Shown here: positions 6,261 to 21,624 of the stretch, in pieces
Layout: each line of letters starts with the position of its first letter
Numbering within the stretch: position 1 is the first letter of the stretch
From: a virus
Length of the DNA: 21,624 nucleotides
Direction: 5' to 3' (one strand)
IMG/VR virus record: IMGVR_UViG_3300002121_000046
Span: 1-21,624 of that record
The notes under the pieces: generated by a model
The model's input: only the letters and a program-made list of their open reading frames with translations
Told to the model about the DNA's origin: nothing
Databases searched by the model: none
Translations under genes and position numbers: made by a program

Positions 6261-7619
6261 TTGTCTGTGGGCTACCAGCCAACCAAAAAACAGGCCATAG
6301 CCCATGTAGCTTTTCTGACTGGTGGTTTTAAACGTGGCGTCCTACTCATGGGGCGTCAATCCGGGAAAACTTATTTTGCTACCCAGCACGCTTGGTTAAA
6401 TGCTGTTATTCGCCAGGGGCGCTATTTTGTGGTATTCCAGACCTATAAACAAGCCCACGAAGTTGTCTGGCGACAGTATATCCCACTAATCCCGGAGGAA
6501 TTGATAAACAAAAAAAACGAACTGGATTTGATAGTCGAACTTGATTATGTCCACGGTCCGGTAAAACTCCCTGACGGCCAGACAATTCAGGTTGACCATG
6601 ACCACTCTCAGCCACGGAGTGTTATCCAGCTCTTGGGTTCTGACCAAGCCGACTCACACCGTGGTTTCAAAGCCCATGGAATTATTTTTGATGAGTATGC
6701 CGACCAGAATCCCGACAACTGGGAAGCAGTCTACAAGCACTTTTTCACAACAACCGATGGCTGGGCAATATTCATGGGGACCCCACGTGGATACAATCAT
6801 TTTTATGACCTTGTGGAATATGCCAAGGAAAATCCGCGCTGGTTCTACCAGGAAGCTACTTGGCGCGATTCGCCCTATGTTTCCGAGAAATTTATTATCG
6901 ATGAACGCAAAGAAGCTGAAAAAACCGGCAAATTGTCGACTTTTTTACAAGAAGTGGAACTAGAATTTCGGGCTATTCAGGGTGCGGTCTATCCAGACTT
7001 TGACAGAGACATCCACATCAAGAAGCCTGCCGAGTTTCCTGACCTTGAAGAGCTTGATATCTACGCCGGGATAGATTTCGGCTTCCATACCACCGCCGTA
7101 ATTTTCATCGGAATAGATAAAGAGCAGAATTGGTGGATTTTTGACGAAGTTTATGGTCGAGAGGAGACCCTGGAGGATGTTATGCCCCGGATTTGGACCA
7201 AATTAGGCGACAAACGGTTGATTTTAATAGTCGGCGACTCGCAGAATAAGGATGCTATTGAAATGATGGCTTCCAAGGGCTTCCCGGTTACCCCGGTAGT
7301 CAAACATCAGGGGTCGATTATTGACGGTATTGACCTGATTCGGGCAAAACTTAAGCCTCGCACCCAGCTAGTCGGCGAACCCAAGCCATCAATCTTCTTT
7401 TCCTCTGCCTGTAAGAACCTCATCCAGGAAGTCGAGGCCTATAAGTACCCCGAAGACAAGCCCGACAGGAACCCGACTGATTTGCCGATGAAAGACAACG
7501 ACCACGGTCCTGACGCTCTGCGCTATGTAGCTATTCAAATGAAGTTTGGTCGTCTGACTGAGGACAAAATGCCGGAAAACACCACCATAAAAGCTCTTAA
7601 TGAGTATGGGTTGATGTGA
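6261..7619 (+). CDS. terL: Phage terminase large subunit (ATPase and nuclease)
   Basis: This 452-aa motor pumps DNA into the prohead and cuts it. The ATPase half carries Walker A GRQSGKT (residues 32-38), Walker B GIIFDEYAD near 140 and the coupling motif MGTPRG near 173. The nuclease half has the three expected acidic sites: YAGIDFG near 270, VGDSQNKD near 328 and DHGPDALRY near 425. Length fits the family. No ATG is available: translation starts at TTG 6261 or GTG 6267, with only a weak GTAGAG upstream, so initiation probably depends on coupling to the gene ending at 6252. It acts with the small subunit and docks on the portal encoded next. Confidence 0.96.
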   Translation: MSVGYQPTKKQAIAHVAFLTGGFKRGVLLMGRQSGKTYFATQHAWLNAVIRQGRYFVVFQTYKQAHEVVWRQYIPLIPEELINKKNELDLIVELDYVHGPVKLPDGQTIQVDHDHSQPRSVIQLLGSDQADSHRGFKAHGIIFDEYADQNPDNWEAVYKHFFTTTDGWAIFMGTPRGYNHFYDLVEYAKENPRWFYQEATWRDSPYVSEKFIIDERKEAEKTGKLSTFLQEVELEFRAIQGAVYPDFDRDIHIKKPAEFPDLEELDIYAGIDFGFHTTAVIFIGIDKEQNWWIFDEVYGREETLEDVMPRIWTKLGDKRLILIVGDSQNKDAIEMMASKGFPVTPVVKHQGSIIDGIDLIRAKLKPRTQLVGEPKPSIFFSSACKNLIQEVEAYKYPEDKPDRNPTDLPMKDNDHGPDALRYVAIQMKFGRLTEDKMPENTTIKALNEYGLM

Positions 7620-9917: not shown

Positions 9918-10209
9918 CATACCACAAACAAAAATTGATGAAACGCAATTAGCCGAAGAAAAAAATGCCGCTCGTTATTCCAAGACTAAGGAATTCCGAC
10001 AGCTCAAAGAATATCTAGAGGGTAGGATTAAATTCTTCCAAGGGCATCTGCCCAACGGAGACCCAGCAGCTACCCAATCGCCTGAAGTTCTCTACCATAA
10101 CTGGGTAGTCGCTAATCTGGTTATTGGTGAGTTCCAAGCTGTTCTGAACTTTTACGCTAATGCCGAGGAAGCGGTCAAAGATGTCACCCGAGGAAATCGA
10201 CCAGTTTAA
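9871..10209 (+). CDS. Hypothetical helical protein in the head module (112 aa)
   Basis: Begins MAEPANAIIGETFGTDIPQT with one of the strongest ribosome binding sites in the window (AAGGAGG, 5-6 nt before the ATG), which implies high expression. Residues 25-105 look helical (TKEFRQLKEYLEGRIKFFQG, then VLYHNWVVANLVIGEFQAVL). No cysteines or membrane segment. Its place between portal and scaffold suits a head accessory protein. No family recognised. Confidence 0.7.
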   Translation: MAEPANAIIGETFGTDIPQTKIDETQLAEEKNAARYSKTKEFRQLKEYLEGRIKFFQGHLPNGDPAATQSPEVLYHNWVVANLVIGEFQAVLNFYANAEEAVKDVTRGNRPV

Positions 10210-10426
10210 AGAGTGGGGAGTGCCGCTCCCGACCCGCGACGTCCACATTAAGGATGAGGACATCGCTAAGAATATGGAAAAAGCCGAGGTCAAGAGCTGG
10301 CGTCAGGAAGGCAATAAGTTAATCGCTGAAACTCAATTAGGTGATGTGGTTAATTTTCTACCAACTGACACGATGCTGACTGGTGTTAAAAATAATCGAC
10401 CAGTATTGACGAAAGTCAGACTTTAG
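10181..10426 (+). CDS. Hypothetical protein in the head module (81 aa)
   Basis: Starts MSPEEIDQFKEWGVPLPTRD, mixed helix and strand, ending in a beta-like segment (LIAETQLGDVVNFLPTDTML). The ATG at 10181 is preferred over the in-frame ATG at 10160 because GAGGAAG lies 11 nt before 10181, while 10160 has no site. It overlaps the upstream gene by 29 nt, implying coupling. Its 3' end contains the promoter for the scaffold and capsid genes. No recognised family. Confidence 0.65.
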   Translation: MSPEEIDQFKEWGVPLPTRDVHIKDEDIAKNMEKAEVKSWRQEGNKLIAETQLGDVVNFLPTDTMLTGVKNNRPVLTKVRL

Positions 10427-10435
10427 CTATATATT
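10406..10435 (+). promoter_or_regulatory. Promoter for scaffold-like and capsid genes
   Basis: TTGACG (10406-10411, one mismatch) is followed by TATATA (10428-10433, 16-bp spacer) or TATATT (10430-10435, 18-bp spacer). It lies at the end of the 81-aa gene. The resulting transcript would have a leader of about 110 nt. Confidence 0.5.
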
Positions 10436-10549
10436 ATAAGTATCGCGCCGTTCGACGAACGAACGTTAAACAAATAAGGAACCAAAACAGGTTCCAATAA
10501 GCAAGCCGCCCGTTGCGTGAATCAGGGGCGTAAAAAAAGGACAAACAAT
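10436..10549 (+). promoter_or_regulatory. Structured 5' leader of the scaffold/capsid transcript
   Basis: Three hairpins fit in this gene-free stretch: GTTCG/CGAAC near 10449-10465, a perfect GGAACC/GGTTCC (10478-10483 with 10490-10495, loop AAAACA), and CGCCC/GGGCG near 10507-10531 just before an A-run. The AAGGA site follows in open sequence. Possible mRNA stabiliser or translational control; no known riboswitch recognised. Confidence 0.35.
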
Positions 10550-11389
10550 ATGGCCGACAAGCCCAAGAAAGAGGAGCCTGAGGCTCCCGCAGAAGTAACA
10601 CCAGAGGCGCCTGTCGCCGAAGAACCGAAGGAAGAGCCAAAAGCTGAACCTCCGGTAGAGGAACCCGCAGCAGAACCACAAGCCGAGGAGCCGGAACCGC
10701 CGGAGCCAGAGCTAGAGAGCGAGGAACCCGAGCTGACGCCGCGCCAGCAGGAGCGTGTCAAAGAAGCTAAAGAACGGGGGATGGACCCCCTGAAAATCGA
10801 GCGACTCATCACGAATATGACTCGGCCTAAACAAGCCGATGAACCTTCCCAAAAACCCGAAATCGATTACAGTACTGAGTTGGACGCTGACGAGGAAGTC
10901 GTAAAGACCCTCGAAGCAGACCGAAAACAGTATGGTGATAGAGAACGGAACGCTGGATTGGAGATGGCTAAGAACATCCAATTCCACACCCGTCTAGAGG
11001 TTGATGCGCCAAGAGTAGAACAAAAGTACAGCTTTTTAGATAAGAACAGTTCAGATTTTGACCCGGTGAGGGCCAACGCTATGAATATGCTCTATCTAAA
11101 CACTGTCGGTTACTCTCCTGGCAATCCTGACCGTGGTGCCCCAGAATCGGTGGTGAACCCCAATGTTCGCTATTACGATTTCGTGGAAGCCCAAATGGAA
11201 TTTGCAGAAGCTCTAATGGCGGAACGTAGTGTCCGCTCGACTAGAAATATCGCCAAGCAGGCGGCCGAAACTGGTCTACGACCAGATGGCAGCTCGGCGA
11301 AGGGCCTAGATTTGTCCAAGGCGCCTAAAGATATGTCCAACGAAGAACTTAATGCCGCCTTGAAAATTGTTGTTCCGCTCACAAAATAG
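10550..11389 (+). CDS. Scaffold-like protein with Pro/Glu-rich N-terminus (279 aa)
   Basis: The first 75 residues are low-complexity acidic repeats of Glu, Pro and Ala (EEPEAPAEVTPEAPVAEEPK). A mostly helical region follows, with a segment rich in Asn, Tyr and Asp near 170-210 and a helical C-terminus. It sits directly before the major capsid gene, the usual place for a capsid scaffold, and flexible acidic arms are common in scaffolds. The ATG at 10550 (AAGGA, 8-nt gap) is preferred over an in-frame GTG at 10517, which lies in the structured leader without a site. No protease is visible nearby. A decoration or DNA-binding head protein is the alternative. Confidence 0.6.
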   Translation: MADKPKKEEPEAPAEVTPEAPVAEEPKEEPKAEPPVEEPAAEPQAEEPEPPEPELESEEPELTPRQQERVKEAKERGMDPLKIERLITNMTRPKQADEPSQKPEIDYSTELDADEEVVKTLEADRKQYGDRERNAGLEMAKNIQFHTRLEVDAPRVEQKYSFLDKNSSDFDPVRANAMNMLYLNTVGYSPGNPDRGAPESVVNPNVRYYDFVEAQMEFAEALMAERSVRSTRNIAKQAAETGLRPDGSSAKGLDLSKAPKDMSNEELNAALKIVVPLTK

Positions 11390-11412
11390 AAACTTAAACA
11401 AGGATTCATATT

Positions 11413-12276
11413 ATGGCAGCTCCAACGCTGAATACTAATGTGACCTTAGCGATTGCCCAGACAGCTCAGTACGTTAAAGAGCTCTGGACGCGCGAAATCG
11501 AGCAGCCGTTTGATGCTAAACTTCAGATGGCAAAGCTAGTCTTAGACCGCTCCGGTATTGCCGCAGGCGGTGGAGACACAGTCCGTGTACCATTCGTAGC
11601 AGGGGTTAACGCTCGCGCCAAAAGCGCCAGCACGGACCTAACCTACGATTCACCCGATGGAACGGCTATCGCGCACTCTATTGACAAGCACTACTACAGT
11701 GCGGTCAAAATCGAGGATATCGCTAAAGTCCAATCAAATTTCAATCTAAGAAGTGCTTTCCAGGAACGAATGGCTGAATCACTAGCCCGTCAAATCGACA
11801 CCGATTTGCACGCGCTCTATGCTTCCGCTGGTTCGACTGTAACTGGAGGCGCAAACATTGACGACGCTGATATTCTATCCGTCGTTAGTACTTTCGATGA
11901 CGCAGATACGCCACAAGGCCAACGCCGAGGTGTTATCGGCCACAATACCAAGTCCGACCTACTTGGTGTCAACAAATACGTTGCTTACGACCAAACCGGT
12001 ATGAAAGGCAAAGCCGTTGACGGTTCTGATGGTCTAGTCGGCTCGATATATGGGATGGACATTTACCACTCGGGTAATGTTCCGACCTCAACAACGGGTC
12101 GCAATCTGTTCTTCCACAAGAGTGCGATTGTGCTGATTAAACAGCTCAAGCCGACATTCGAAGCCGAGTACAGTGTCGATTCGTTAGCGTGGAAAATCGC
12201 TGTTCAATGCGTCTACGGAGTAGGCGTCGAACGCGCAGCTTCGGTTATCGAACTGACCCGTACTACAGCTCCTTAA
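11413..12276 (+). CDS. Major capsid protein (HK97 fold)
   Basis: This 287-aa protein builds the icosahedral shell. It has the expected order: a helical N-terminal arm (NVTLAIAQTAQYVKELWTRE), a segment VRVPFVAGVNARAKSASTDL typical of the E-loop, the spine helix region (SAFQERMAESLARQIDTDLH, residues 114-133), and a C-terminal A-domain with TTGRNLFFHKSAIVLIKQL and a closing strand VERAASVIEL. Composition is soluble and cysteine-poor (one Cys). An AAGGA site lies about 8 nt before the ATG, 23 nt after the scaffold-like gene. It is likely the most abundant virion protein. Capsid subfamily not decided. Confidence 0.9.
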   Translation: MAAPTLNTNVTLAIAQTAQYVKELWTREIEQPFDAKLQMAKLVLDRSGIAAGGGDTVRVPFVAGVNARAKSASTDLTYDSPDGTAIAHSIDKHYYSAVKIEDIAKVQSNFNLRSAFQERMAESLARQIDTDLHALYASAGSTVTGGANIDDADILSVVSTFDDADTPQGQRRGVIGHNTKSDLLGVNKYVAYDQTGMKGKAVDGSDGLVGSIYGMDIYHSGNVPTSTTGRNLFFHKSAIVLIKQLKPTFEAEYSVDSLAWKIAVQCVYGVGVERAASVIELTRTTAP

Positions 12277-12277
12277 T

Positions 12278-12331
12278 GACGCCTAGCGTCTAATCTGAGC
12301 TGACCGTTAGGGGCGGCGGTCAAACCGCCCC
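12278..12331 (+). other. Two hairpins after the capsid gene
   Basis: GACGC/GCGTC (12278-12282 with 12286-12290, loop CTA) comes 1 nt after the capsid stop. GGGGCGG/CCGCCCC (12310-12316 with 12325-12331) follows. Neither has a T-run behind it, so they more likely trim or protect the capsid mRNA 3' end, or lower read-through, than fully terminate. Confidence 0.45.
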
Positions 12332-12371
12332 ACCAATAAATCGAAGATTCTAATAAATTAAGGAGGCCACC

Positions 12372-12563
12372 ATGGCAAGTAGAGCAGAACTGGAACTTCG
12401 GGCAAGCGCCGTCAACGTTGTTGTCGCTGATTACCCGAATGATTCCAAACTCGAACAAGCAGTAATCTACGCCGAGAAAGCCGTCACCACTACTGGCGCG
12501 GCTACCACGATTGCCCCCGCAGCAGCACAGGTAGCTAAAGTATCCGGCGGGGCTAACGTATAG
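12372..12563 (+). CDS. Small Ala-rich protein after the capsid gene (63 aa)
   Basis: MASRAELELRASAVNVVVAD followed by YPNDSKLEQAVI looks like a short helix-extended loop-helix (HeH/SAP-like) unit. The last 25 residues are low complexity (Ala, Thr, Val). AAGGAGG precedes the ATG by 6 nt, so translation should be efficient. HeH-type motifs occur in small phage head-completion or DNA-end proteins; the resemblance is by eye only. Confidence 0.6.
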   Translation: MASRAELELRASAVNVVVADYPNDSKLEQAVIYAEKAVTTTGAATTIAPAAAQVAKVSGGANV

Positions 12564-12571
12564 GAGACATT

Positions 12572-12784
12572 ATGGCTAAAGAAAGACATATTGAAGTCGC
12601 CGAAGGGGTGGTTCACCACCTTGACCGCGACCCTAACGACCCTCGTAACCGGAAAAATGTAATTTTGCCTAACCTGCCGGTTGTCGAATCACCCGCGATT
12701 CCGCCCAAGGATTTGGATATACATAATCCGGAACACGCTAACCTGACCTATGATGAGCTCCAAGAGCTCTTAAAAGCAGAATAG
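12572..12784 (+). CDS. Small polar protein (70 aa)
   Basis: Starts MAKERHIEVAEGVVHHLDRD, rich in Asp, Asn, Pro and His, and ends in a short helix NLTYDELQELLKAE. AGGAGA lies 4-5 nt before the ATG, 8 nt after the previous gene. It is likely a minor virion or head-tail joining protein from its position. No recognised family and no catalytic motif. Confidence 0.55.
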   Translation: MAKERHIEVAEGVVHHLDRDPNDPRNRKNVILPNLPVVESPAIPPKDLDIHNPEHANLTYDELQELLKAE

Positions 12785-12793
12785 CTCTCGTCT

Positions 12794-12847
12794 GCGGTGA
12801 CTGACCGCTTTGCGGTGACTGACCGCTTTACGGTGACTGACCGCTCG
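12794..12847. repeat. Three tandem 18-bp palindromic repeats
   Basis: Units GCGGTGACTGACCGCTTT lie at 12794-12811 and 12812-12829. A third at 12830-12847 differs at its first base and its last two bases. Each can fold as GCGGT/ACCGC around GACTG. Same-arm hairpins (GGCGGT/ACCGCC) occur just before the 63-aa gene. Likely protein-binding or RNA-processing sites. Confidence 0.85.
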
Positions 12848-12882
12848 CAACTAAGTTCCTTTATTATTCAGGGACTTAGTTG
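12848..12882 (+). terminator. 12-bp hairpin, terminator-like
   Basis: CAACTAAGTTCC (12848-12859) pairs with GGGACTTAGTTG (12871-12882) with one G-U pair and an 11-nt loop. The stem is perfect and comes right after the triple repeat. It ends the head-gene block, but the following TATTATGATAAA is AT-rich rather than a clean T-run, so it may instead block exonucleases. Confidence 0.5.
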
Positions 12883-12914
12883 TATTATGATAAATGTTAA
12901 GGGTAAAAATAAAT

Positions 12915-13214
12915 ATGACTATCCAAAGTGTTGCCGTAAATCAAGATTCCGCAGGAACGACTACGCTTGTCACGGTCAGTGCCAGCGAAGCGGTGACGGT
13001 AGTTAGCTATTTTTTGGTTCTAAGTGCTACTGGGACCTATCAGTTTGCGGGTCTTTCAAACCTAACCGGTGACGTACCCGTGGATGCTAAGGGTGGAGTC
13101 GTCGTAGCTGGTAGACCAGAATCGCCCGTTTTCGTGTTACCTCGCGGTAATAACTTGTCTATCGTCACTACTGGGGGAGCAGCCAAGGGACACCTAAGCT
13201 ATTTTATAAGCTAG
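12915..13214 (+). CDS. Small beta-rich virion-like protein (99 aa)
   Basis: Starts MTIQSVAVNQDSAGTTTLVT and alternates hydrophobic with Ser/Thr/Gly residues throughout, with no charged helices: a beta-sandwich pattern common to capsid decoration or tail-tip proteins. The ATG at 12915 is chosen over one at 12894 because AAGGG lies 11 nt upstream, whereas 12894 has no site. Its stop is 10 nt before the Ser/Pro-repeat gene. No specific family recognised. Confidence 0.6.
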   Translation: MTIQSVAVNQDSAGTTTLVTVSASEAVTVVSYFLVLSATGTYQFAGLSNLTGDVPVDAKGGVVVAGRPESPVFVLPRGNNLSIVTTGGAAKGHLSYFIS

Positions 13215-13224
13215 GTAGTACAGC

Positions 13225-14646
13225 GTGGCTTTAACTCTTGGAACCAACTCGGGCTTTGTAACCGTTGCACCTACAGAAGACCCTGCTGGAACAAGCACTA
13301 CTTTTGATGGCTCGTCTGTAGTTACAAAAGATACCAGCCCTGCTGGGGCTACAAGTATAACCGAGATAGGTTGGTATCGTGCTGCTGGAACTAATAGTGC
13401 TAATTTTGAAGTAGCTTTATATTCTGATACTGCTGGCGTAGCAGATGTTAGGCTTTTTGTTGATGACACCAACTCAGACACTGCGGGTGGATGGGTACGT
13501 GTAACAGTTGACTGGGCAATTTCTGCCAGTACGGCTTATTGGCTCGGCTTACAAATGGACGCTCACAGTGGCAACAGTGGAGTTGACCGTGCAGATTCTG
13601 GGGGTGCGGGGAGAGATATACTGGCATCTCAAACCGCTCTAAACGACCCCTACGGCGGGGGTGCGGTAGGAGACGCTGATGGGATGTATGCTATTTATGC
13701 TTTAGTCGTAGCTCCTAGTCCCTCGGTTAGCCCTAGCTCATCTGAGTCCCCCAGTATATCGCCTTCCGCCTCAGAGAGTCCGTCGGCCTCAGTAAGTCCA
13801 TCCATCTCACCCTCTGCCAGCGTATCTCCATCTGCTAGTGAAAGCCCCAGCGCCAGCGTTTCACCCAGTATTTCTCCTTCAGCTTCGATTTCACCAAGTG
13901 CTAGCGAGTCGCCAAGTATTTCACCCTCGGCTTCTACCAGTCCGAGCGCCAGCGGGTCTCCATCAATCTCGCCTAGCGCCAGCGTTAGTCCCAGTAGCAG
14001 TATTTCAGCTAGTATATCGCCCTCCTCGTCCGTCTCTCCTTCAGCCTCAACCAGCCCGAGTTCGTCAAGCAGCCCTTCCCTCTCCCCTAGCAGTTCTTTA
14101 AGCCCTTCGTCATCCGAGAGTCCGAGCATCTCTCCCAGCGCTTCAGTTTCACCGAGTAGTTCAGAATCTCCATCAATCAGCCCCTCCGCATCTGTATCGC
14201 CTAGCGCCTCAACTAGTGTTAGCGTTTCCCCTAGTGCAAGTGCTTCGCCGTCAGAAGGTAGCTCCATCTCGCCCTCGGCTTCTGTCTCGCCATCGGCATC
14301 TTCATCGCCCTCAATTTCACCCTCAGCTTCCTTGTCACCGTCAGCTTCCATCTCTGCTAGTATCTCCCCTTCGGCAAGCTTATCTCCGTCAAGTTCCACT
14401 AGTCCATCCCTGTCCCCTTCGGCTTCGGTCTCAGCATCCACAAGTCCCAGCGCCTCGACCAGCCCTAGCATCTCGCCCTCGGCAAGTGTTAGCCCATCAA
14501 GTAGTATCTCCCCATCAATTTCACCTAGTAGTAGTTTAAGCCCATCAAGTAGCCTCAGCGCTAGTCTGTCCCCATCATCCTCGGCTTCCCCTAGCGCCGC
14601 CGGGCAGACGCCTCAGTGGCGGACTATGCTTGGTGTCGGTTTATAA
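13225..14646 (+). CDS. Fibre-like protein with long Ser/Pro repeat (473 aa)
   Basis: Residues 1-160 form a beta-rich domain (YWLGLQMDAHSGNSG) that resembles virion adhesion or carbohydrate-binding domains. About 295 residues of SPSxS-type repeats follow, then a short end GQTPQWRTMLGVGL. The repeat uses all six serine codons freely, so the protein pattern is kept while the DNA is not a clean tandem repeat. Start is GTG with AGG about 9 nt upstream. It probably projects from the virion or tail. The Ser-rich rod is an obvious candidate acceptor for the sugars handled by the downstream cassette, which is inference. Confidence 0.75.
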   Translation: MALTLGTNSGFVTVAPTEDPAGTSTTFDGSSVVTKDTSPAGATSITEIGWYRAAGTNSANFEVALYSDTAGVADVRLFVDDTNSDTAGGWVRVTVDWAISASTAYWLGLQMDAHSGNSGVDRADSGGAGRDILASQTALNDPYGGGAVGDADGMYAIYALVVAPSPSVSPSSSESPSISPSASESPSASVSPSISPSASVSPSASESPSASVSPSISPSASISPSASESPSISPSASTSPSASGSPSISPSASVSPSSSISASISPSSSVSPSASTSPSSSSSPSLSPSSSLSPSSSESPSISPSASVSPSSSESPSISPSASVSPSASTSVSVSPSASASPSEGSSISPSASVSPSASSSPSISPSASLSPSASISASISPSASLSPSSSTSPSLSPSASVSASTSPSASTSPSISPSASVSPSSSISPSISPSSSLSPSSSLSASLSPSSSASPSAAGQTPQWRTMLGVGL

Positions 14647-14661
14647 CCGGCTGAAACTTTG

Positions 14662-14692
14662 TTGTAATTCTGGAACCTTTTTGTGTTAAAAT
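14662..14692 (+). promoter_or_regulatory. Promoter of the glycan cassette
   Basis: TAAAAT (14687-14692) has TGT before it (extended -10). A weak TTGTAA lies at 14662-14667 with a long 19-bp spacer. The predicted start is about 14699, only 2-3 nt before the ATG at 14702, and no ribosome binding site is present. Confidence 0.45.
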
Positions 14693-14701
14693 TAATTTAA
14701 T

Positions 14702-14974
14702 ATGCGTAAAGCTCCCAAAAGCCAACAGGAAAAAAAGGAAATTTTGGAAGCTGACCGTCGTACTAAACGCACTAAAGGTTTCGCCCTAATGAGTGTCCGC
14801 GACCAAGGTTATGCTCGGCTACGGGACTATAACCAGGGCGAGTCGGTCACGATGGACTGGAACATCCCTGGTGAGAATAAGTTCTTGCTCCATCTAGAGA
14901 GCAATAGTAAACACGATGAAATAAATCTGGTATTTGATGCCGAGGAGTTCCGTAAGTGGTTGCGCTGGGCTTGA
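14702..14974 (+). CDS. Hypothetical protein opening the glycan cassette (90 aa)
   Basis: A basic N-terminus (MRKAPKSQQEKKEILEADRR, then TKRTK) is followed by a small beta-rich unit (SVTMDWNIPGENKFLLHLES, then HDEINLVFDAEEFRKWLRW). The gene has no ribosome binding site and its promoter -10 ends 9 nt before the ATG. The 3' end encodes GAGGAG, the binding site for the overlapping glycosyltransferase gene. First gene of the operon, so it may be a regulator or small partner; no family recognised. Confidence 0.65.
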   Translation: MRKAPKSQQEKKEILEADRRTKRTKGFALMSVRDQGYARLRDYNQGESVTMDWNIPGENKFLLHLESNSKHDEINLVFDAEEFRKWLRWA

Positions 14975-15909
14975 GTGTTATTATCGCCAGTAGAGTCGAC
15001 CAATACCTACAAAAAACGGTTGACGATTTATTAGAAAAAGCTGACGGCGAGATTGAGGTCATTGTAGTGCTTGATGGTTATTGGCCTAATCCGCCCCTGA
15101 AGGAGGACCCTAGGGTTGTTATCATCCATCAAGGGACGATTCACGATAACCTGGGTATGCGCGAAGCCATAAATGCCGGGGTAAGTATTGCCCGGGGTAA
15201 GTACATTATGAAGATTGATGAACACTGCATGGTCGACCAAGGATATGACCTGAAATTGGCCGCCGATTGCCAAGACAACTGGGTGGTAATACCCCGCCGA
15301 TTTCGATTAGAGCCCGACAGCTGGACCCTGCTAGAAGATGGTCGCCCGCCCATTGATTATATGCAGATAGACTACCCCTACCAACGCCCCTATGACCGTA
15401 CTTGTGGGCTGCATGGCGGAGAATGGCGCTGGCGCCACTATGACCGCAAGCATATTTTGATAGACGATACTATGAGCTGGCAGGGGTCATGTTGGTTCAC
15501 CACCAAGGCCTATTGGGATAAACTACTTTTTCCCCTAGAGACCTCAAAATACGGCACTTTTACTCACGAGTCCCAGGAAATCGGCATGAAGGTCTGGCTG
15601 TCGGGTGGACGCCTGGTGGTTAATAAAAAGACCTGGTACGCTCATTATCATAAAGGTAAAAAAGGCAAGGGCTATGGTTTCTCTCGGGCCCAATATGCTA
15701 GACACATGGCCGACATGGAGAAAGGTCGTTTATTCGCCATAGATTATTGGGTCAACGATAAATGGGACAGCCCCGCGCGGATACACAGCTTCCAATGGTT
15801 GATGGATAAATTCTGGCCGGTACCAGGGTGGCCCGACAACTGGCAGGAGCAAATTAGAATCGACCAGGAAAAGGATTGGTCGAAGTTAGGAGAACCAACG
15901 TGGTCATAG
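14956..15909 (+). CDS. GT-A glycosyltransferase with DxH motif (GT2/GT27-like)
   Basis: This 317-aa enzyme likely transfers a sugar from a nucleotide-sugar donor. It opens with the GT-A strand LSVIIASR, then VIVVLDGYW (D40), and has GVSIARGKYIMKIDEHC with the DxH metal motif at 88-90. Further on are SWQGSCWFTTKAYW, an acidic SQEIGMKVWLSGG segment and WYAHYHKG. That order (DxH, Q/G-G-x-F, E-x-x-x-x-x-W-x-x-G-G, H) is the one seen in polypeptide GalNAc-transferases (GT27) and their GT2 relatives. GTG 14956 is favoured because GAGGAG lies 8 nt upstream; TTG 14971, overlapping the previous stop as TTGA, is the alternative. Paralogous to the first half of the 556-aa protein. Substrate unknown. Confidence 0.85.
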   Translation: MVALGLSVIIASRVDQYLQKTVDDLLEKADGEIEVIVVLDGYWPNPPLKEDPRVVIIHQGTIHDNLGMREAINAGVSIARGKYIMKIDEHCMVDQGYDLKLAADCQDNWVVIPRRFRLEPDSWTLLEDGRPPIDYMQIDYPYQRPYDRTCGLHGGEWRWRHYDRKHILIDDTMSWQGSCWFTTKAYWDKLLFPLETSKYGTFTHESQEIGMKVWLSGGRLVVNKKTWYAHYHKGKKGKGYGFSRAQYARHMADMEKGRLFAIDYWVNDKWDSPARIHSFQWLMDKFWPVPGWPDNWQEQIRIDQEKDWSKLGEPTWS

Positions 15910-16394
15910 GTCATGGTGATATTGCAAAAGTACTGCCCCAAAGAAAGAATCTACTATTTTTCGCTTCGGGTGTATCGAACTCTCAGGAAATTCATCGCCA
16001 CGCTTATGCCCGCGAAGAGGATTTGTTAATGTCTCAACCGAGGGACGAGCATATCGTTTACTTCAGTAGCTTGAGTATTTTTTATGATAATACTCTTTAT
16101 ACTCGCCACAAACGCTACATGGAGACTTTAGTCAAAGAGAATTTCCCGACTTACACTATTATGAGGTTGGGCAATATTGCTTGGGGAAATAATCCCCATA
16201 CTCTAATCAATTATCTCCGCGCCCACCCCAAGGCGGAGATAAGAAATGAATATAGGTATATTATCAGTAAAGACGAATTTCTGCATTGGATAAATCTGAT
16301 ACCGAGTTGGCCCTGCGAGATGAATTGCCCAGGTGAACGTTTAAAAGTGAAGGAGGTTTATGAGCGCTTTGTTAAACCGTATCGAACTAGCTAA
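15900..16394 (+). CDS. Half-size SDR / NAD-dependent epimerase-like protein (164 aa)
   Basis: Epimerase-like features: MVIGHGDIAK at the start as a degenerate Rossmann loop, FFASGVSNS, HIVYFSSLSIFYD before the catalytic YTRHK (YxxxK, Y67/K71), then TIMRLGNIAWGNNP, a typical sugar-epimerase segment. At 164 aa it is about half the usual 300 or more, with the nucleotide-binding half shortened and a small C-terminal part. GTG 15900 has AGGAG 7 nt upstream, better than TTG 15876. It overlaps the previous gene by 10 nt. It may be a minimal sugar-nucleotide-modifying enzyme or an evolving remnant. Confidence 0.6.
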   Translation: MVIGHGDIAKVLPQRKNLLFFASGVSNSQEIHRHAYAREEDLLMSQPRDEHIVYFSSLSIFYDNTLYTRHKRYMETLVKENFPTYTIMRLGNIAWGNNPHTLINYLRAHPKAEIRNEYRYIISKDEFLHWINLIPSWPCEMNCPGERLKVKEVYERFVKPYRTS

Positions 16395-16884
16395 GTATTT
16401 CGCCGAGCTGGGTTTTAAGGTCGGAGCAGAAATTGGTGTCAATCGGGGACTTTATGCCCAGACGATGTTCGAGAACAACCCAGGGTTAAAACTATACTTA
16501 GTAGATAACTGGGCTTCTGAGCGACGTCGGAGTAACATGGCTGAGGCGCTAGACCGAACCAACGAATATAATGCCGAAGTCATGGAGATGACTAGCTTGG
16601 AAGCTGCCCAGCAATTTCAATCTGAAGCTTTAGATTTTGTCTTTATCGACGCTGGGCATACTTATAAAGATGTCAAAGAGGACCTTGAGGCCTGGACCCC
16701 CAAGGTCAGAAAAGGTGGTATTGTTTCGGGCCACGATTACTATGAATTCCCTTCTGGTAGAGGCGGCGTCATTCCAGCCGTCAACGAATATATCGCCGAG
16801 CACGGCTATGCATTGCATATAATCCCTTGGGATAAGACCCAGAGTGTCGATAATCGTCAACCTTGTTGGTACTTTCGACGATGA
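16360..16884 (+). CDS. Class I SAM-dependent methyltransferase (174 aa), copy 1
   Basis: Motif I is GAEIGVNRGLYAQTM (22-36), then YLVDNW (46-51) and FVFIDAGHTYKDVKEDLEAW (93-112), and GGIVSGHDYY (119-128). This is the Methyltransf_24 / cephalosporin-hydroxylase-like pattern often seen in sugar or glycan methylation loci. AAGGAGG precedes the ATG; it overlaps the epimerase-like gene by 35 nt. Likely methylates a sugar or glycan end. Target not decided. Similar to the next gene. Confidence 0.85.
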   Translation: MSALLNRIELAKYFAELGFKVGAEIGVNRGLYAQTMFENNPGLKLYLVDNWASERRRSNMAEALDRTNEYNAEVMEMTSLEAAQQFQSEALDFVFIDAGHTYKDVKEDLEAWTPKVRKGGIVSGHDYYEFPSGRGGVIPAVNEYIAEHGYALHIIPWDKTQSVDNRQPCWYFRR

Positions 16885-17468
16885 CGGTTATACCAGATTT
16901 CGGCAGAAATCAGTTGGCCTCGCTCACGGCCTTGCTGGGATTTACGGTTGGCGTGGAAGTAGGAGTAGCTGCCGGAGGGTTTTCTAAGGTCATCCTAGAC
17001 GCTAATCCTAAAATGGAACTTTATGGGGTAGACCCCTGGACACCCTACGGCGGGTATAGAGACTATGCCCGAAAATCCACCCTAGATACTCTGGAAATAA
17101 AAGCCCGCCGTCTGTTAAAGGGATATGACAACTATGAGTTCATCAAGGCCTTCAGTATGGACGCTGTTCAGCAGTTCTCGGACGGTTCCTTGGATTTTGT
17201 ATACATAGATGCCAACCACCAGGAACCGTATGTCTCCCAAGATATTAACGAGTGGTATCGAAAACTCCGACCTAGGGGTATCCTCTCTGGACACGACTAT
17301 GTACGAAGTGCCCATCGGGATGGGACACCCCTGTATCACGATGTCAAGAACGCCATTCACCGTTTCACGAATGAAAATGGGATAGAGCTGTTCATCCTGG
17401 GGAATGAAGCCATAGACGAAGGGCTAGTCAGAGACCGCCCGAGAAGTTGGATGCTATGGAAAAGGTAG
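16881..17468 (+). CDS. Class I SAM-dependent methyltransferase (195 aa), copy 2
   Basis: It shares the layout of copy 1: GVEVGVAAGGFSKVI (24-38), YGVDPW (48-53), DFVYIDANHQEPYVSQDINE (105-124) and RGILSGHDYV (132-141). Its ATG overlaps the previous stop as ATGA, so that start is chosen over an upstream TTG at 16863. A tandem duplication that diverged, possibly to methylate different positions. Same uncertainty on substrate. Confidence 0.85.
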   Translation: MTVIPDFGRNQLASLTALLGFTVGVEVGVAAGGFSKVILDANPKMELYGVDPWTPYGGYRDYARKSTLDTLEIKARRLLKGYDNYEFIKAFSMDAVQQFSDGSLDFVYIDANHQEPYVSQDINEWYRKLRPRGILSGHDYVRSAHRDGTPLYHDVKNAIHRFTNENGIELFILGNEAIDEGLVRDRPRSWMLWKR

Positions 17469-18124
17469 CCATCTTAAGTTGCGTCTTGGGTGGCTTCGAC
17501 ACCCCCAAAGACCCCGTCGAGCAGGACATCCCCGCTACTTTTCATCGCTGGACTGATGAGAATTTTCCGTTAATCGCTGGTTTGACCCCAAGGTTACAGT
17601 ACAGAATCCCTAAATACTTCGGTTGGCAGATGTTGCCTGGATATGATTTTTATATTTGGTTGGATGGAGGTATATCTCTGTTAAGACGAGATTGTGCGAC
17701 GTGGTATTTATCACAAATAGATGGTTATGATATCGGCTTTTTCGAACATCCGCACCGTAATTCCATCGAAGCCGAGGTTCGGCACGTAGACGACTATCTT
17801 CACCGGCGGGTAGGGACCAAGAGAGGGCAGGACTACATCATCTCAAGATACGAGAACGGTCTTCATAAAGAGCAGTTACGAATAATCCAGAAAGACAAGC
17901 ATTATTCGGACGATAAATTATACGCTACCACAGTATTCGCTTACCGCAATAATCCGAGAGTCCAGGCTTTTATGAAGGACTGGTGGTACTACCAGAGCCG
18001 ATATTTTACTTGCGACCAGATTCCCTTGCCTTGGCTATGCGATAATTGGGGACTTAAGGTTAAGACATTCGATGAACCGCTTTATAAAACAGGGTACATG
18101 AGTTTGGTAAGCCACCACCGATGA
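17456..18124 (+). CDS. DUF616 / TOD1-like glycosyltransferase (222 aa)
   Basis: MEKVAILSCVLGGFD is followed by RLQYRIPKYFGWQMLPGYDF and YIWLDGGISLL (67-77). This matches the family pattern in which a Tyr-x-Ser/Tyr-Ile-Trp-Leu/Ile-Asp-Gly acidic motif sits after a Lys/Arg-x-Pro-Lys stretch. The family has a GT-A-like fold, with Asp70 a likely metal or donor-binding residue. ATG 17456 is used; TTG 17447 is an alternative. It overlaps the previous gene by 13 nt and the next by 4 nt (ATGA). Function as glycosyltransferase is inferred from the family. Confidence 0.6.
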   Translation: MEKVAILSCVLGGFDTPKDPVEQDIPATFHRWTDENFPLIAGLTPRLQYRIPKYFGWQMLPGYDFYIWLDGGISLLRRDCATWYLSQIDGYDIGFFEHPHRNSIEAEVRHVDDYLHRRVGTKRGQDYIISRYENGLHKEQLRIIQKDKHYSDDKLYATTVFAYRNNPRVQAFMKDWWYYQSRYFTCDQIPLPWLCDNWGLKVKTFDEPLYKTGYMSLVSHHR

Positions 18125-19005
18125 GCAGAATTGCCGTAGCCGTACCCACTATTCCTGAGCGAGCTGACATTTTCGCCAAGTTCATGGAGGCGTGGCAACC
18201 GCTGTTCGATAAGCATAAAGCCGAATTTATCAAAGTGCTAGATGGCAAATACCCAACAGTTATAGGGACTGACGAAAATACCTTGCCCTATTCCCCCGTG
18301 GATGTCATGGGTGAATACGCTGACTGTTTGTCTAATCTCAACGCTGGAATCCGGAACCTTGGCTTTGCCTATATAGCTAGGTACCTACCAGAAGTCGAGT
18401 ATATCGTCACCCTAGACGACGACGTTCTACCGATAGGCGACCCCATTGCTGACCATATTACCGCCCTCAGAAAAATGGTTCCTGTAAGCTGGATATCCAC
18501 CGCAGTCGACAACTACACCAGGGGGTTCCCCTATCTAATAAGAGAAGAAGCTGAGGTCGTCCTATCGCATGGTGTCTGGCGAGGCGTGGCTGACTGGGAC
18601 GCTGCTTCTCAGCTTATTCTGGGGAGCCACAGACCGGTAGAGTTTTATAAAGGTCCGATTCCTAAAGGTGCCTATTACCCGATGTGCTCTATGAATTTGG
18701 CTTTCAAGCGGAAGATGCTGCCTTATATGTACCACGCTCCCTGGGCGTTGGGTATCCATCGTTTTGATGACATCCTAACGGGCGTGGAGAGTAAACGCGA
18801 GATAGATAAACACGGCTGGGCAGCGGTCACTGGATATGCTAGAGTCCACCACGAACGAGCCTCCAATGTTTTCACCAATCTCAAGAACGAAGCTCCTGGC
18901 ATGGAGCTAAATGAACATTTCTGGGAGGGCGATGAGAGCCATCCCTACTTTAAGATTTATAGGGAGAAATACGCCTTATGGCAAAAATACATAGCAATGA
19001 TATAA
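18121..19005 (+). CDS. Reversibly glycosylated polypeptide / UDP-arabinopyranose mutase-like protein (GT75)
   Basis: The 294-aa protein closely follows plant RGP/UAM proteins, which convert UDP-arabinopyranose to UDP-arabinofuranose. Shared features in order: IAVAVPTI at the start; VTLDDDV with the DDD triad (99-101); RGFPYLIREE (134-143), which holds both arginines seven residues apart as in the RGYPFSLREG region of plants; VLSHGVWRGVADWDAASQLI (147-166); PKGAYYPMCSMNLAFKR (181-197); RFDDILTG (214-221); and HHERASNVFTNLKNE (243-257). From memory, the DDD and first arginine are needed for mutase and self-glycosylation. The first ATG overlaps the previous stop (ATGA). Whether it acts on arabinose or another sugar here is unknown. 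Confidence 0.82.
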   Translation: MSRIAVAVPTIPERADIFAKFMEAWQPLFDKHKAEFIKVLDGKYPTVIGTDENTLPYSPVDVMGEYADCLSNLNAGIRNLGFAYIARYLPEVEYIVTLDDDVLPIGDPIADHITALRKMVPVSWISTAVDNYTRGFPYLIREEAEVVLSHGVWRGVADWDAASQLILGSHRPVEFYKGPIPKGAYYPMCSMNLAFKRKMLPYMYHAPWALGIHRFDDILTGVESKREIDKHGWAAVTGYARVHHERASNVFTNLKNEAPGMELNEHFWEGDESHPYFKIYREKYALWQKYIAMI

Positions 19006-19691
19006 CCGCTGTTTATTACACGGCTGACGAGTTACCCCACAAGTTCGCAGTGGCTACAATGAATCAGTTGCTGAAGGCACTTGGCGATATCCCTATAATT
19101 ATTATCAAGAAAGACCCTTTAGCAGAACGTTCCCAGGCCAATATCTATCGCCAAGCATTGCAGGGGGCGAAACTGGCTCACACTAAATATATAGCTTGTT
19201 GTGAGGACGATGTTCTTTATTCCCCAGAGCACTTCAAATTTCGCCCTAAAGACGGACACTGGGGTTATAACATGAACGCCTGGAGTATCTTTACCTGGGG
19301 AGAGCCGGTATTCAGCTATAAAGCTCCCGGAGGCCGAAGGAACTTGGCTGGCCTTATCTGTGACCGCCAGATGTTTATAAATCACTTAGAAGAAAGGTTC
19401 CGGTTATGGTCGGATGATTCTAAAATCCGCAAAGAAATATTCGGTGAACCCGGAAAGTATGATAACCAGCTCGGTACGACTCCTTACCCTTCCGAATATT
19501 TTTACATTAACCCACCCAATATAATATTCTCGCACCAGACCGCCTTGCAGTTCGAGGGGTTGGGCACCCGCAAGGCATTGGGTAATATTCGTGCCACCGA
19601 GATACCTTTTTGGGGGCGGGCATCTGATATAGTAAAACTATATAAGGAAAATAAAAATGCCACAACTCAGTATCCTTATTCCAAGCCGTAG
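18978..19691 (+). CDS. Glycosyltransferase-like protein with EDD motif (237 aa)
   Basis: GT-A-like start ITAVYYTADELPHKF, a strand IIIIKKD and a central TKYIACCEDDVLYSPEHFKF (69-88) with EDD as the probable metal-binding acidic motif. NMNAWSIFTWGE and the C-terminal FSHQTAL segment follow. The YI-EDDVLY-P-HF signature is shared with the second half of the 556-aa protein (FFTEHDVLYHPSHFDF), so the two are paralogues. It overlaps the RGP-like gene by 28 nt, with AGGGAG upstream. Assigned to glycosyl transfer from pattern and context; family not named with certainty. Confidence 0.6.
   Translation: MAKIHSNDITAVYYTADELPHKFAVATMNQLLKALGDIPIIIIKKDPLAERSQANIYRQALQGAKLAHTKYIACCEDDVLYSPEHFKFRPKDGHWGYNMNAWSIFTWGEPVFSYKAPGGRRNLAGLICDRQMFINHLEERFRLWSDDSKIRKEIFGEPGKYDNQLGTTPYPSEYFYINPPNIIFSHQTALQFEGLGTRKALGNIRATEIPFWGRASDIVKLYKENKNATTQYPYSKP
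19627..19643 (+). other. Hairpin before the 556-aa gene start
   Basis: ATATAGT/ACTATAT (19627-19633 with 19637-19643, loop AAA) lies within the end of the upstream gene and 2 nt before the AAGGAAAA ribosome binding site. Could tune re-initiation. AT-rich, so stability is low. Confidence 0.35.
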
Positions 19692-21327
19692 GGAAATGTT
19701 CACGGCCAAGACAGTCGAGAACCTCCTAGAGAATATTGAGGGCGATACTGAAATCTTAATCGGGCTAGACGGAGAATGGAGCGACCCCGGAATAGTTGAT
19801 GATAAGCGAGTTAGAATCGTCCGTTATCCTCAATCAATCGGTCAGCGAGCAATGACTAATCAATTAGCCCGATTATCAACCGCTAAATACATCGCCAAAT
19901 GTGATGCTCACTGTAGCTTTGACAAGGGTTTTGACCGCATACTAATGGAGAACATGCAGGATGATTGGACGGTTGTGCCGGTAATGAAAAATCTCCATGC
20001 CTTTGATTGGGTCTGCCCGGACGGGCACCGGCGCTACCAGTCGCCTTCAGGACCGTGCAAGGATTGCGGGAAGCCCACCGAAAGGGACGTGTTATGGTTT
20101 GCCAAGCCATCGCCTAATTCCACCGCCTACTGCTTCGACCCTGAACCGCACTTCCAATATTTCAATGAATATAAAAAACGGCAGCAGGGAGACCTGGTTG
20201 AAACCATGAGCTTACAGGGGTCTTTTTTTATGATAACCAGAGACAAGTATTGGGAGCTAGGCATCTGCGACGAACAGTTTGGTTCATGGGGCTCGCAAGG
20301 TATAGAAGTAGCTGTTAAGACTTGGCTGTCGGGCGGTAGGGTGCTGTGCAACCGTAAGACCTGGTATGCTCATATGTTTCGTACCCAGGGGGGAGATTTC
20401 AGCTTCCCCTATGAACAGAAGCAATCGAGCGTGAACTTTGCTAAAAAACGCGCTAGGCAGATATTCTTCGAGAACAAGTGGGACAAACAGGTATACCCGT
20501 TATCCTGGCTGGTGGAAAAGTTCTGGCCAGTCTACGGCTGGAAGGACGAAGATTTAACCAAGCTCAAACAGTTCGACCATGTTATGCCACCACCCGCTAC
20601 TGAAAGAGGTATTATTTACTACACTGATAATCGCCTGCGATTGAGTATCGCCCGTCCAGTCCAAAAGCAGATTAAAAGTATCGCTAAAGATAGGGGTCTA
20701 CCAATAGTATCAGCCACGCTAAAACCGATGGCGCATATGGGGCACAACATCCGTTTAAAGGGCGAGCCCAGTTACTTAATGATGTTTAAACAAATCCTGA
20801 CCGCACTCCAAGCTAGTCGTGCTAAATATGTCTTTTTCACAGAGCATGACGTGCTCTACCACCCCAGTCATTTTGACTTTACCCCACCAAGAGACGACAG
20901 ATTTTATTACAACTTCAACTGGTGGTGTGTCCGCACTAAGGATGGGCTAGCGACCCACTGGGATGCCTATAAGGTTTCACAGCTGTGCGCTAACCGCGAG
21001 TTGCTCATAGGCCACTATCGTAAAAGGGTCGCCATTGTTGAAGAGTACGGCTATAACAATTCCATGGGATTTGAACCTGGGGCACATAATACCGAGGAAT
21101 CGGTGGCTACACGTGATAATTCAGCGATTCCTAAAGACATCTATGTTGACGACATCCTAATGGATTCTTGGCGCTCAGAGTCTCCTAACATTGATATTCG
21201 CGGTCATGGTCAGAACCTATCTGATAGCAAATGGAGCTTGAAGGATTTTCGGGATAAGGCCGCTGCCGTCAACTTCACTCAGAGCACAGTCGATAAAATA
21301 CCAAGTTGGGAGCATCTCAAGCTATAA
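19657..21327 (+). CDS. Two-domain glycosyltransferase fusion (556 aa)
   Basis: The first half (1-300) is a GT-A enzyme: LSILIPSR, LIGLDGEW, STAKYIAKCDAHC with DAH at 83-85, MSLQGSFFMITRDKYW, QGIEVAVKTWLSGGR and WYAHMFR. It is paralogous to the 317-aa enzyme. It carries an insertion with C120, H124, C134 and C137 (CPDGH, CKDC), a probable zinc-binding knuckle the paralogue lacks. The second half (about 315-556) matches the 237-aa protein: GIIYYTDNRL, then AKYVFFTEHDVLYHPSHFDF with EHD at 396-398. Gene fusion would couple two transfer steps. It overlaps the previous gene by 35 nt. Substrates unknown. Confidence 0.85.
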   Translation: MPQLSILIPSRREMFTAKTVENLLENIEGDTEILIGLDGEWSDPGIVDDKRVRIVRYPQSIGQRAMTNQLARLSTAKYIAKCDAHCSFDKGFDRILMENMQDDWTVVPVMKNLHAFDWVCPDGHRRYQSPSGPCKDCGKPTERDVLWFAKPSPNSTAYCFDPEPHFQYFNEYKKRQQGDLVETMSLQGSFFMITRDKYWELGICDEQFGSWGSQGIEVAVKTWLSGGRVLCNRKTWYAHMFRTQGGDFSFPYEQKQSSVNFAKKRARQIFFENKWDKQVYPLSWLVEKFWPVYGWKDEDLTKLKQFDHVMPPPATERGIIYYTDNRLRLSIARPVQKQIKSIAKDRGLPIVSATLKPMAHMGHNIRLKGEPSYLMMFKQILTALQASRAKYVFFTEHDVLYHPSHFDFTPPRDDRFYYNFNWWCVRTKDGLATHWDAYKVSQLCANRELLIGHYRKRVAIVEEYGYNNSMGFEPGAHNTEESVATRDNSAIPKDIYVDDILMDSWRSESPNIDIRGHGQNLSDSKWSLKDFRDKAAAVNFTQSTVDKIPSWEHLKL

Positions 21328-21361
21328 TGTAGCTAGTCCTTAAATAAAAAGGTAAAACAAA

Positions 21362-21624
21362 ATGGCTAGACTTTGGTCTTCAGGATTTGAGTTAAACTCC
21401 GTCACCGCCGGGATGGAGTGGACGGTGTTAACCAATTCTCCCACCATCCAGACAACTACCGTGCGTAGCGGCACTTACGCCATGAGGGTAAATCCGGCTG
21501 GTGCTACTGCTAACTTAGCGTATGATTTCCTGGCTTCTGGCGGCGGTACTGACAATCTGTTTCTCCGTTTTTACCTTAGAATTGCCTCTTCCACCAATGC
21601 TCTTGATGATATTTTCAGAATCAG
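21362..21624 (+). CDS. Virion structural protein, 5' end only (partial)
   Basis: Begins MARLWSSGFELNSVTAGMEW, then TNSPTIQTTTVRSGTYAMRV and LFLRFYLRIASSTNALDDIF, running off the window after 87 codons. The N-terminal pattern (a phrase like SSGFELNS, a strand, then FLRFYLR) is that of LamG/concanavalin-like jelly-roll domains found in phage tail or fibre proteins. AAGG lies 10 nt before the ATG. It comes 34 nt after the glycan cassette, with no visible terminator, so structural genes resume here. Confidence 0.65.
   Translation, partial: MARLWSSGFELNSVTAGMEWTVLTNSPTIQTTTVRSGTYAMRVNPAGATANLAYDFLASGGGTDNLFLRFYLRIASSTNALDDIFRI

Follow-up and report, generated by a model that had tools for sequence, protein, structure and literature searches.

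In animals, mucin O-glycans are initiated by the GT27 polypeptide N-acetylgalactosamine (GalNAc)-transferases, while the serine-rich repeat adhesins of Gram-positive bacteria carry long Ser-rich repeats that are O-glycosylated in the cytosol by clustered glycosyltransferases (GTs), with GtfA/B as the initiators. Here, we focus on a gene island in a virus record, IMGVR_UViG_3300002121_000046, whose 21,624 bases were analysed as a whole and are termed the window; its right half (10121-21624) is identical to part of a 44,744-base IMG/VR contig. Read from the sequence, the island consists of eight genes, g2 to g9 (14956-21327), and lies between capsid and tail genes. Sequence comparison and structure models make it likely that this is an O-glycosylation island, which decorates mucin-like Ser/Pro repeats of the phage's own structural proteins. 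We favour this reading because GTs that look soluble are encoded within a structural block, because the candidate initiators are GT27-like and the Ser/Pro repeats co-vary with the island, and because sugar-nucleotide enzymes and methyltransferases accompany them.

The candidate initiators share with GT27 enzymes the fold of the catalytic domain (Z score 27), the DxH and HxFR motifs and a Ser/Pro-rich proposed acceptor, but identity is 18-22%, no ricin-lectin domain was found in a Pfam scan, and the proteins are soluble-looking, prokaryotic or viral, and in one case fused to an orphan g8-like domain. Long Ser-rich repeats and clustered GTs recall the serine-rich repeat adhesins; the initiators here are GT27-like rather than GtfA/B, and the bacterial copies of the locus lie by tatC. 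Chlorovirus PBCV-1 likewise encodes its own set for capsid glycosylation, and its enzyme ties as the best match to the g6 model (Z 11.8), but the virus is unrelated, and for the island here a Ser/Pro repeat is the proposed acceptor and the bookends are of GT27 type. In mycobacteriophages, according to the account in PMC12619734 citing Freeman et al. 2023, phage GTs glycosylate capsid and tail-tube subunits at their C-termini, a reported shield against anti-phage responses; as far as that account goes, the likeness is in the phage-encoded GTs, and the difference is in the multi-gene island, its exchangeable middle and the Ser/Pro-repeat proposed acceptors. GT75/RGP mutases interconvert NDP-pyranose and NDP-furanose (PMC9937993), and g7 has their PF03214 domain, DDD motif and conserved Arg but sits in a phage island. 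A GT27-like initiator, a mucin-like proposed acceptor, a cassette with fixed ends and a bacterial tatC-linked relative set the locus apart from known virion glycosylation. A literature search, with most subscription papers outside its reach, gave no paper on such Patescibacteria loci or on phage GT27 enzymes.

Architecture and distribution of the island

The first-pass annotation, made from the window's letters and open reading frames (ORFs), had described a nine-gene cassette in which every junction overlaps. The nine ORFs (table 1) and eight overlaps of 4-35 nt are exactly present (in order 19, 34, 35, 22, 22, 4, 28 and 35 nt). The cassette itself shrinks to eight genes: homologues of g1, which has no Pfam match, are found in two loci that lack the cassette (L152 and L157), and g1 is therefore assigned to the head module. 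Overlap lengths are partly inflated, as the earliest start was taken for each ORF. The likelier start of g3 is a GTG codon with an AGGAG site, at which its homologues also begin, and likelier ATG starts for g5 (leaving an overlap of 4 nt) and g6 shorten further overlaps, while all eight junctions still overlap. Across about 70 related islands, with earliest starts applied mechanically inside and outside, 82% of 336 junctions within islands overlap compared with 34% of 565 outside (p = 4e-48); tight packing therefore characterises this kind of island and is no accident of the window.

Relatives of g9 are encoded by 449 viral contigs, 80 of which were sampled for island architecture. Searches with g9 and g2 gave no tblastn match among 50,697 phage records, and no cultured-phage record encodes g9 relatives. 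About 70 of the 80 sampled loci have g2-type and g9-type bookends around a variable middle, and most loci have the order [Ser-rich], g2-type, methyltransferase, 0-12 variable genes, g9-type, [Ser-rich]; the first-pass annotation had allowed that related phages might carry only scattered members, and it is the shared order that recurs. The variable genes encode UDP-glucose/GDP-mannose dehydrogenases, RmlD/epimerases, DegT aminotransferases, GDP-mannose dehydratases, methyltransferases and further GTs. The island is, on this sequence evidence, conserved but modular, with fixed bookends and a middle that is often exchanged. The first-pass annotation's claim of uniqueness needs revision: one viral locus (L280) has nearly the same genes between Ser-rich genes, a Saccharimonadales locus (L111) has a set close to it, and a gene set unique to the window is rejected.

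The island comes directly after the capsid and Ser-rich genes, as seen in the window and 46 capsid-anchored loci. It is lacking as a block, as the annotation had proposed checking, in four capsid relatives with 64-69% identity (L152, L153, L156 and L157), which retain visible head genes (terminase or portal through capsid) and, in the downstream sequence available, lack both the island and the Ser-rich repeats.

A short UDP-glucose/GDP-mannose dehydrogenase-like gene of about 255 aa, roughly half as long as the known enzymes, stands beside or inside many of them (L011:5735-6511, L014:8273-9028, L012:4017-4814 and L111:2363-3136). At L016:2801-3289, between g9 and a Ser-rich gene, a small protein is encoded whose repeats are homing-endonuclease-like; it may have a part in the exchange of cassettes.

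Predicted functions of the island enzymes

The first-pass annotation had named GTs, an RGP/mutase-like enzyme and two methyltransferases, and Pfam agrees in each case, with g2 and g9 matching GT2 family GTs. In the bookend g9, a fusion protein, homology to g2 covers residues 1-305 (hhalign 100%, E 5e-83) and homology to g8 the remainder, so that a few families, reused repeatedly, make up the island. Profiles of g9 (60 sequences) and g2 (36 sequences) place GalNAc-transferases at or near the top of their PDB sequence matches, the g2 profile doing so over residues 4-230 (E 1e-9). The g9 model is confident (predicted local distance difference test, pLDDT, 91), and nearly all leading Foldseek matches are GalNAc-transferases. 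A second structural alignment gives these enzymes Z 23-27, with GalNAc-T2 at 27.3 (2.4 A over 262 residues) and the best non-GT27 GT at 19.0; as first-domain matches filled the searches, the fold result concerns the GT27-like domain. The DxH element (DAHC) and late HxFR of the g9 family line up with those of the human enzymes and are found in 140/159 and 141/159 distinct g9-type proteins, respectively (about 88%). In the window they occur as DAHC at 83 and AHMFR at 238 of g9, and as DEHC at 88 and AHYHK at 229 of g2, where the late His is kept and the FR is not. By sequence profile, both bookends resemble GT27 mucin-type initiators. Membership of GT27 is not claimed, because no lectin domain was found: no ricin family appears among Pfam matches with E up to 1, and the C-terminus of g9 is g8-like. 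For g8 itself there is no Pfam match, its profile gives nothing meaningful against PDB sequences, and a profile comparison with g6 shows no relation. No family was over cut-off in an NCBIfam scan.

The middle genes would supply and modify sugars. For g3, the suggestion of a half-size epimerase stands as far as motifs go: it keeps the short-chain dehydrogenase/reductase (SDR) elements GxGDIA (GxGxxA), Ser (SS) and YxxxK, conserved across 26 relatives, but at about 165 aa it has no Pfam or PDB sequence or profile match and no full-length epimerase substrate domain. The methyltransferases g4 and g5 are putatively the source of an O-methylated cap, judged by their Methyltransf_24 membership; a PDB search bearing on a sugar substrate gives only a weak match, 6g7d. 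Both proteins (16360-17468) also match phrog_2675, 'DNA methyltransferase', over its middle only, and that name is likely misleading. The annotation had called g6 DUF616-like; the TOD1/DUF616 similarity in Pfam is weak (E 0.045) and a PDB sequence search gives chance-level matches only, but the AlphaFold model is a confident GT-A fold (pLDDT 92), with a PBCV-1 capsid GT and GT6 enzymes tied as best neighbours at Z near 11.8. The match of g7 to PF03214 scores 97.5 bits against a cut-off of 23.8; the protein aligns to a UDP-arabinopyranose mutase and retains the DDD and the Arg of RGxP, and distinct family members have DDD in 11/12 and RG[FY]P in 12/12 cases. It is a putative GT75/RGP-like NDP-pyranose mutase. 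A homologue with 33% identity to g7 is encoded in a 595-kb uncultured phage (LR756511.1:205984-206775). Transmembrane helices were not found in the island products, apart from one hydrophobic stretch of g5 at its Rossmann core, and the products look cytosolic and soluble.

Table 1. Features of the window, with the evidence for each assignment.
Feature	Position	Strand	Evidence
Terminase large subunit	6261..7619	+	PF03237, PF17288, phrog_2; head-module context
Major capsid protein	11413..12276	+	phrog_267 1e-38; relatives L152, L153, L156, L157 without island
Ser/Pro-rich structural protein 1, proposed acceptor	13225..14646	+	37% Ser; co-occurrence tests
g1, small head-module protein outside cassette	14702..14974	+	Homologues near capsid gene in cassette-less L152, L157
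g2, GT27-like glycosyltransferase, 5' bookend	14956..15909	+	PF00535; GalNAc-T profile matches
g3, mini-SDR, short NDP-sugar epimerase/reductase-like	15876..16394, likely start 15900	+	Motifs GxGDIA, SSL, YxxxHK
g4, Methyltransf_24, proposed sugar O-methyltransferase	16360..16884	+	PF13578 1e-19
g5, second Methyltransf_24, g4 paralogue	16863..17468, likely start 16881	+	PF13578 1e-16; 34% identity to g4
g6, GT-A-fold glycosyltransferase, distant DUF616/TOD1 likeness	17447..18124, likely start 17456	+	AlphaFold model, structural neighbours
g7, GT75/RGP-like NDP-pyranose mutase (putative; furanose donor supply)	18121..19005	+	PF03214 1e-27; PDB 8cid 6e-14
g8, orphan family, putative glycosyltransferase	18978..19691	+	Homologous to g9 C-terminal half; conserved EDDxLY
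g9, bidomain glycosyltransferase, 3' bookend	19657..21327	+	GT27-like domain (1-305) plus g8-like domain
Ser-rich structural protein 2, start only	21362..21624	+	814 aa in longer contig

Elsewhere in the window, a VWA/CobT-like and AAA (CbbQ/NorQ-like) gene pair (268-2797, - strand) is transcribed away from the head module; PHROGs names its AAA protein 'porphyrin biosynthesis', and the pair is probably of MoxR-VWA type.

Ser/Pro repeats and the Patescibacteria relatives

The island was said to be bounded by a Ser-rich fibre-like gene and a LamG-like structural gene; the latter proves to be the first part of a Ser-rich protein of 814 aa. Ser makes up 51.5% of the SPSxSxSPS repeats, Pro 15% and Thr 1.4%. 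Around a second capsid family, in loci with at least 2 kb downstream, a Ser-repeat gene and GTs occur together in 46 loci, neither in 2 and one alone in 0, counts that are inflated by kinship among the phages. An independent sample drew contigs by a DNA pattern for SPSASxSPS, whatever their capsid family, in pieces of at least 8 kb: GTs are present in 18/32 with a Ser-rich ORF and 0/12 with the pattern elsewhere (p = 5e-4). On sequence grounds, the Ser/Pro repeat proteins are the likely acceptor, and those next to the island are probably what gets coated.

Related loci are also found in bacteria. Record titles place about 39/45 of them in Patescibacteria (Woese-, Levy-, Davies-, Collier-, Zambryski-, Saccharibacteria and others), and outside these lineages there are one Planctomycetota, one Proteobacteria metagenome-assembled genome (MAG) and bacteria that the titles leave unnamed. 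TatC is encoded in 21/28 cassette-bearing genomes compared with 15/192 background Patescibacteria (p = 8e-15). In 14 of 28 genomes searched, one contig carries both TatC and the g9-type gene, 5-14 kb apart, and in a fifteenth (G019) TatC shares a contig with other island genes. The g9-type copy in the complete chromosome CP066693.1 (L141) neighbours TatC and an Mg-chelatase-family gene. In the Patescibacteria chromosomes of L111, L117, L128, L139 and L141 (e.g. L141:15901-16635), TatC adjoins a GT island and giant SPS-repeat proteins. A locus general to Patescibacteria is rejected, as the g9 family occurs in only 3/192 genomes, all three already known. A prophage origin of the bacterial copies is disfavoured: the terminase family is matched in only 4/28 genomes (divergent terminases could escape), and the flanks, with tatC, an Mg-chelatase/ComM-like gene and surface Ig-like proteins, speak against it. 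MAG binning errors may account for some loci, with L119, L121 and L122 resembling phage contigs.

The bacterial loci pair GTs with Ser-rich proteins, with no head genes there, and hydropathy gives these proteins no signal peptide. Phage-host exchange of both enzymes and acceptors is likely, because 9/27 bacterial Ser-rich proteins share non-repeat parts with phage ones and the g9 tree requires at least 5 to 9 phage/host switches (a quick tree with long branches). One bacterial Ser-rich protein (L138:11069-15958) shares 70% identity with a phage Ser-rich protein (L103) over its first 285 residues. The bacterial copies make Patescibacteria the most likely hosts of these phages.

Proposed pathway, alternatives and meaning

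Glycosylation would take place in the host cytosol, before or during assembly. The first N-acetylhexosamine-like sugar would be placed on serines of the SPSxSxSPS tails by a GT27-like enzyme, for which the likeliest candidates are g2 and/or g9 through its N-terminal domain; the g8-like domain of g9, g8 and g6 would extend or branch the glycan, using special NDP-sugars from g7 (furanose) and g3 (epimerised or reduced), and g4 and g5 would O-methylate it. Frequent exchange of the island middle means that surface glycans would differ among phages. Candidate benefits are shielding from lectin-like defences, host-surface mimicry and adhesion. Even odds are given to a broader proposal, a prokaryotic mucin-type O-glycosylation common to Patescibacteria and their phages, with a GT27-related initiator acting on SPSxS tails; here bacterial Ser-rich glycoproteins and tatC would form one locus, and the phage version, exchanged as a cassette, would coat the virion.

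Several observations count against decoration of the phage's own Ser/Pro repeats. In the pattern sample, 14/32 Ser-repeat loci lack such a GT within the available piece, and one locus (L011) has the island and no Ser-rich gene on its piece. By sequence, the Ser-rich proteins are putative virion components. The GT27 likeness is remote at 18-22% identity, g2 has YAHxHK in place of HxFR, and a GT27-like fold is no guarantee of GalNAc or of a peptide acceptor. Architecture, Ser-repeat co-occurrence, the GT27-like fold and motifs, and tatC linkage come from sequence or structure prediction; from these we infer the reactions, acceptor, sugar identities, step order, host and benefit, and with them the chemistry.

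It is unlikely that the island instead alters the host cell surface, through a capsule- or glycolipid-like glycan for superinfection exclusion. Its sugar-nucleotide genes do resemble O-antigen and capsule sets, and homologous loci occur in Patescibacteria chromosomes, but it encodes no membrane-anchored GT, flippase or polymerase, its products look soluble, it sits within the structural block immediately after the capsid gene, and it combines GT27-like bookends with a tight Ser-rich pairing. Quite unlikely, too, is action on other structural proteins (capsid or tail tube), with the Ser repeats as flexible spacers common in the lineage. The site between capsid and tail genes would suit such targets, and co-occurrence among related sampled phages may reflect lineage; yet Ser-repeat genes drawn regardless of capsid family also carry GTs, the repeats are Ser/Pro-rich and almost Thr-free, and the same pairing recurs in bacterial loci without head genes. 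Sugar hypermodification of phage DNA is very improbable: phage GTs often act on DNA and one PHROG matched by the Methyltransf_24 proteins bears the name DNA methyltransferase, but a non-exhaustive scan of the 44.7-kb contig's proteins found no hydroxymethylase or thymidylate-synthase-like gene, and linkage to Ser-rich proteins and the GT27-like fold point elsewhere. Dedicated virion glycosylation, as first suggested for the window, is the best-supported reading, given the structural-block site, cytosolic-looking products, block absence and Ser-rich co-occurrence.

If true, prokaryotes would have a counterpart of mucin O-glycosylation in which enzyme and acceptor are encoded side by side, and under the mucin-type proposal phage particles would wear host-type glycans. 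For uncultured ultra-small bacteria, this would offer a rare functional lead on how their phages build a surface, and it suggests a candidate role for TatC, which is otherwise rare in Patescibacteria. The soluble-looking enzymes could serve peptide glycosylation, and the layout of fixed bookends and variable middle suggests an arms race over surface glycans that is legible from sequence.

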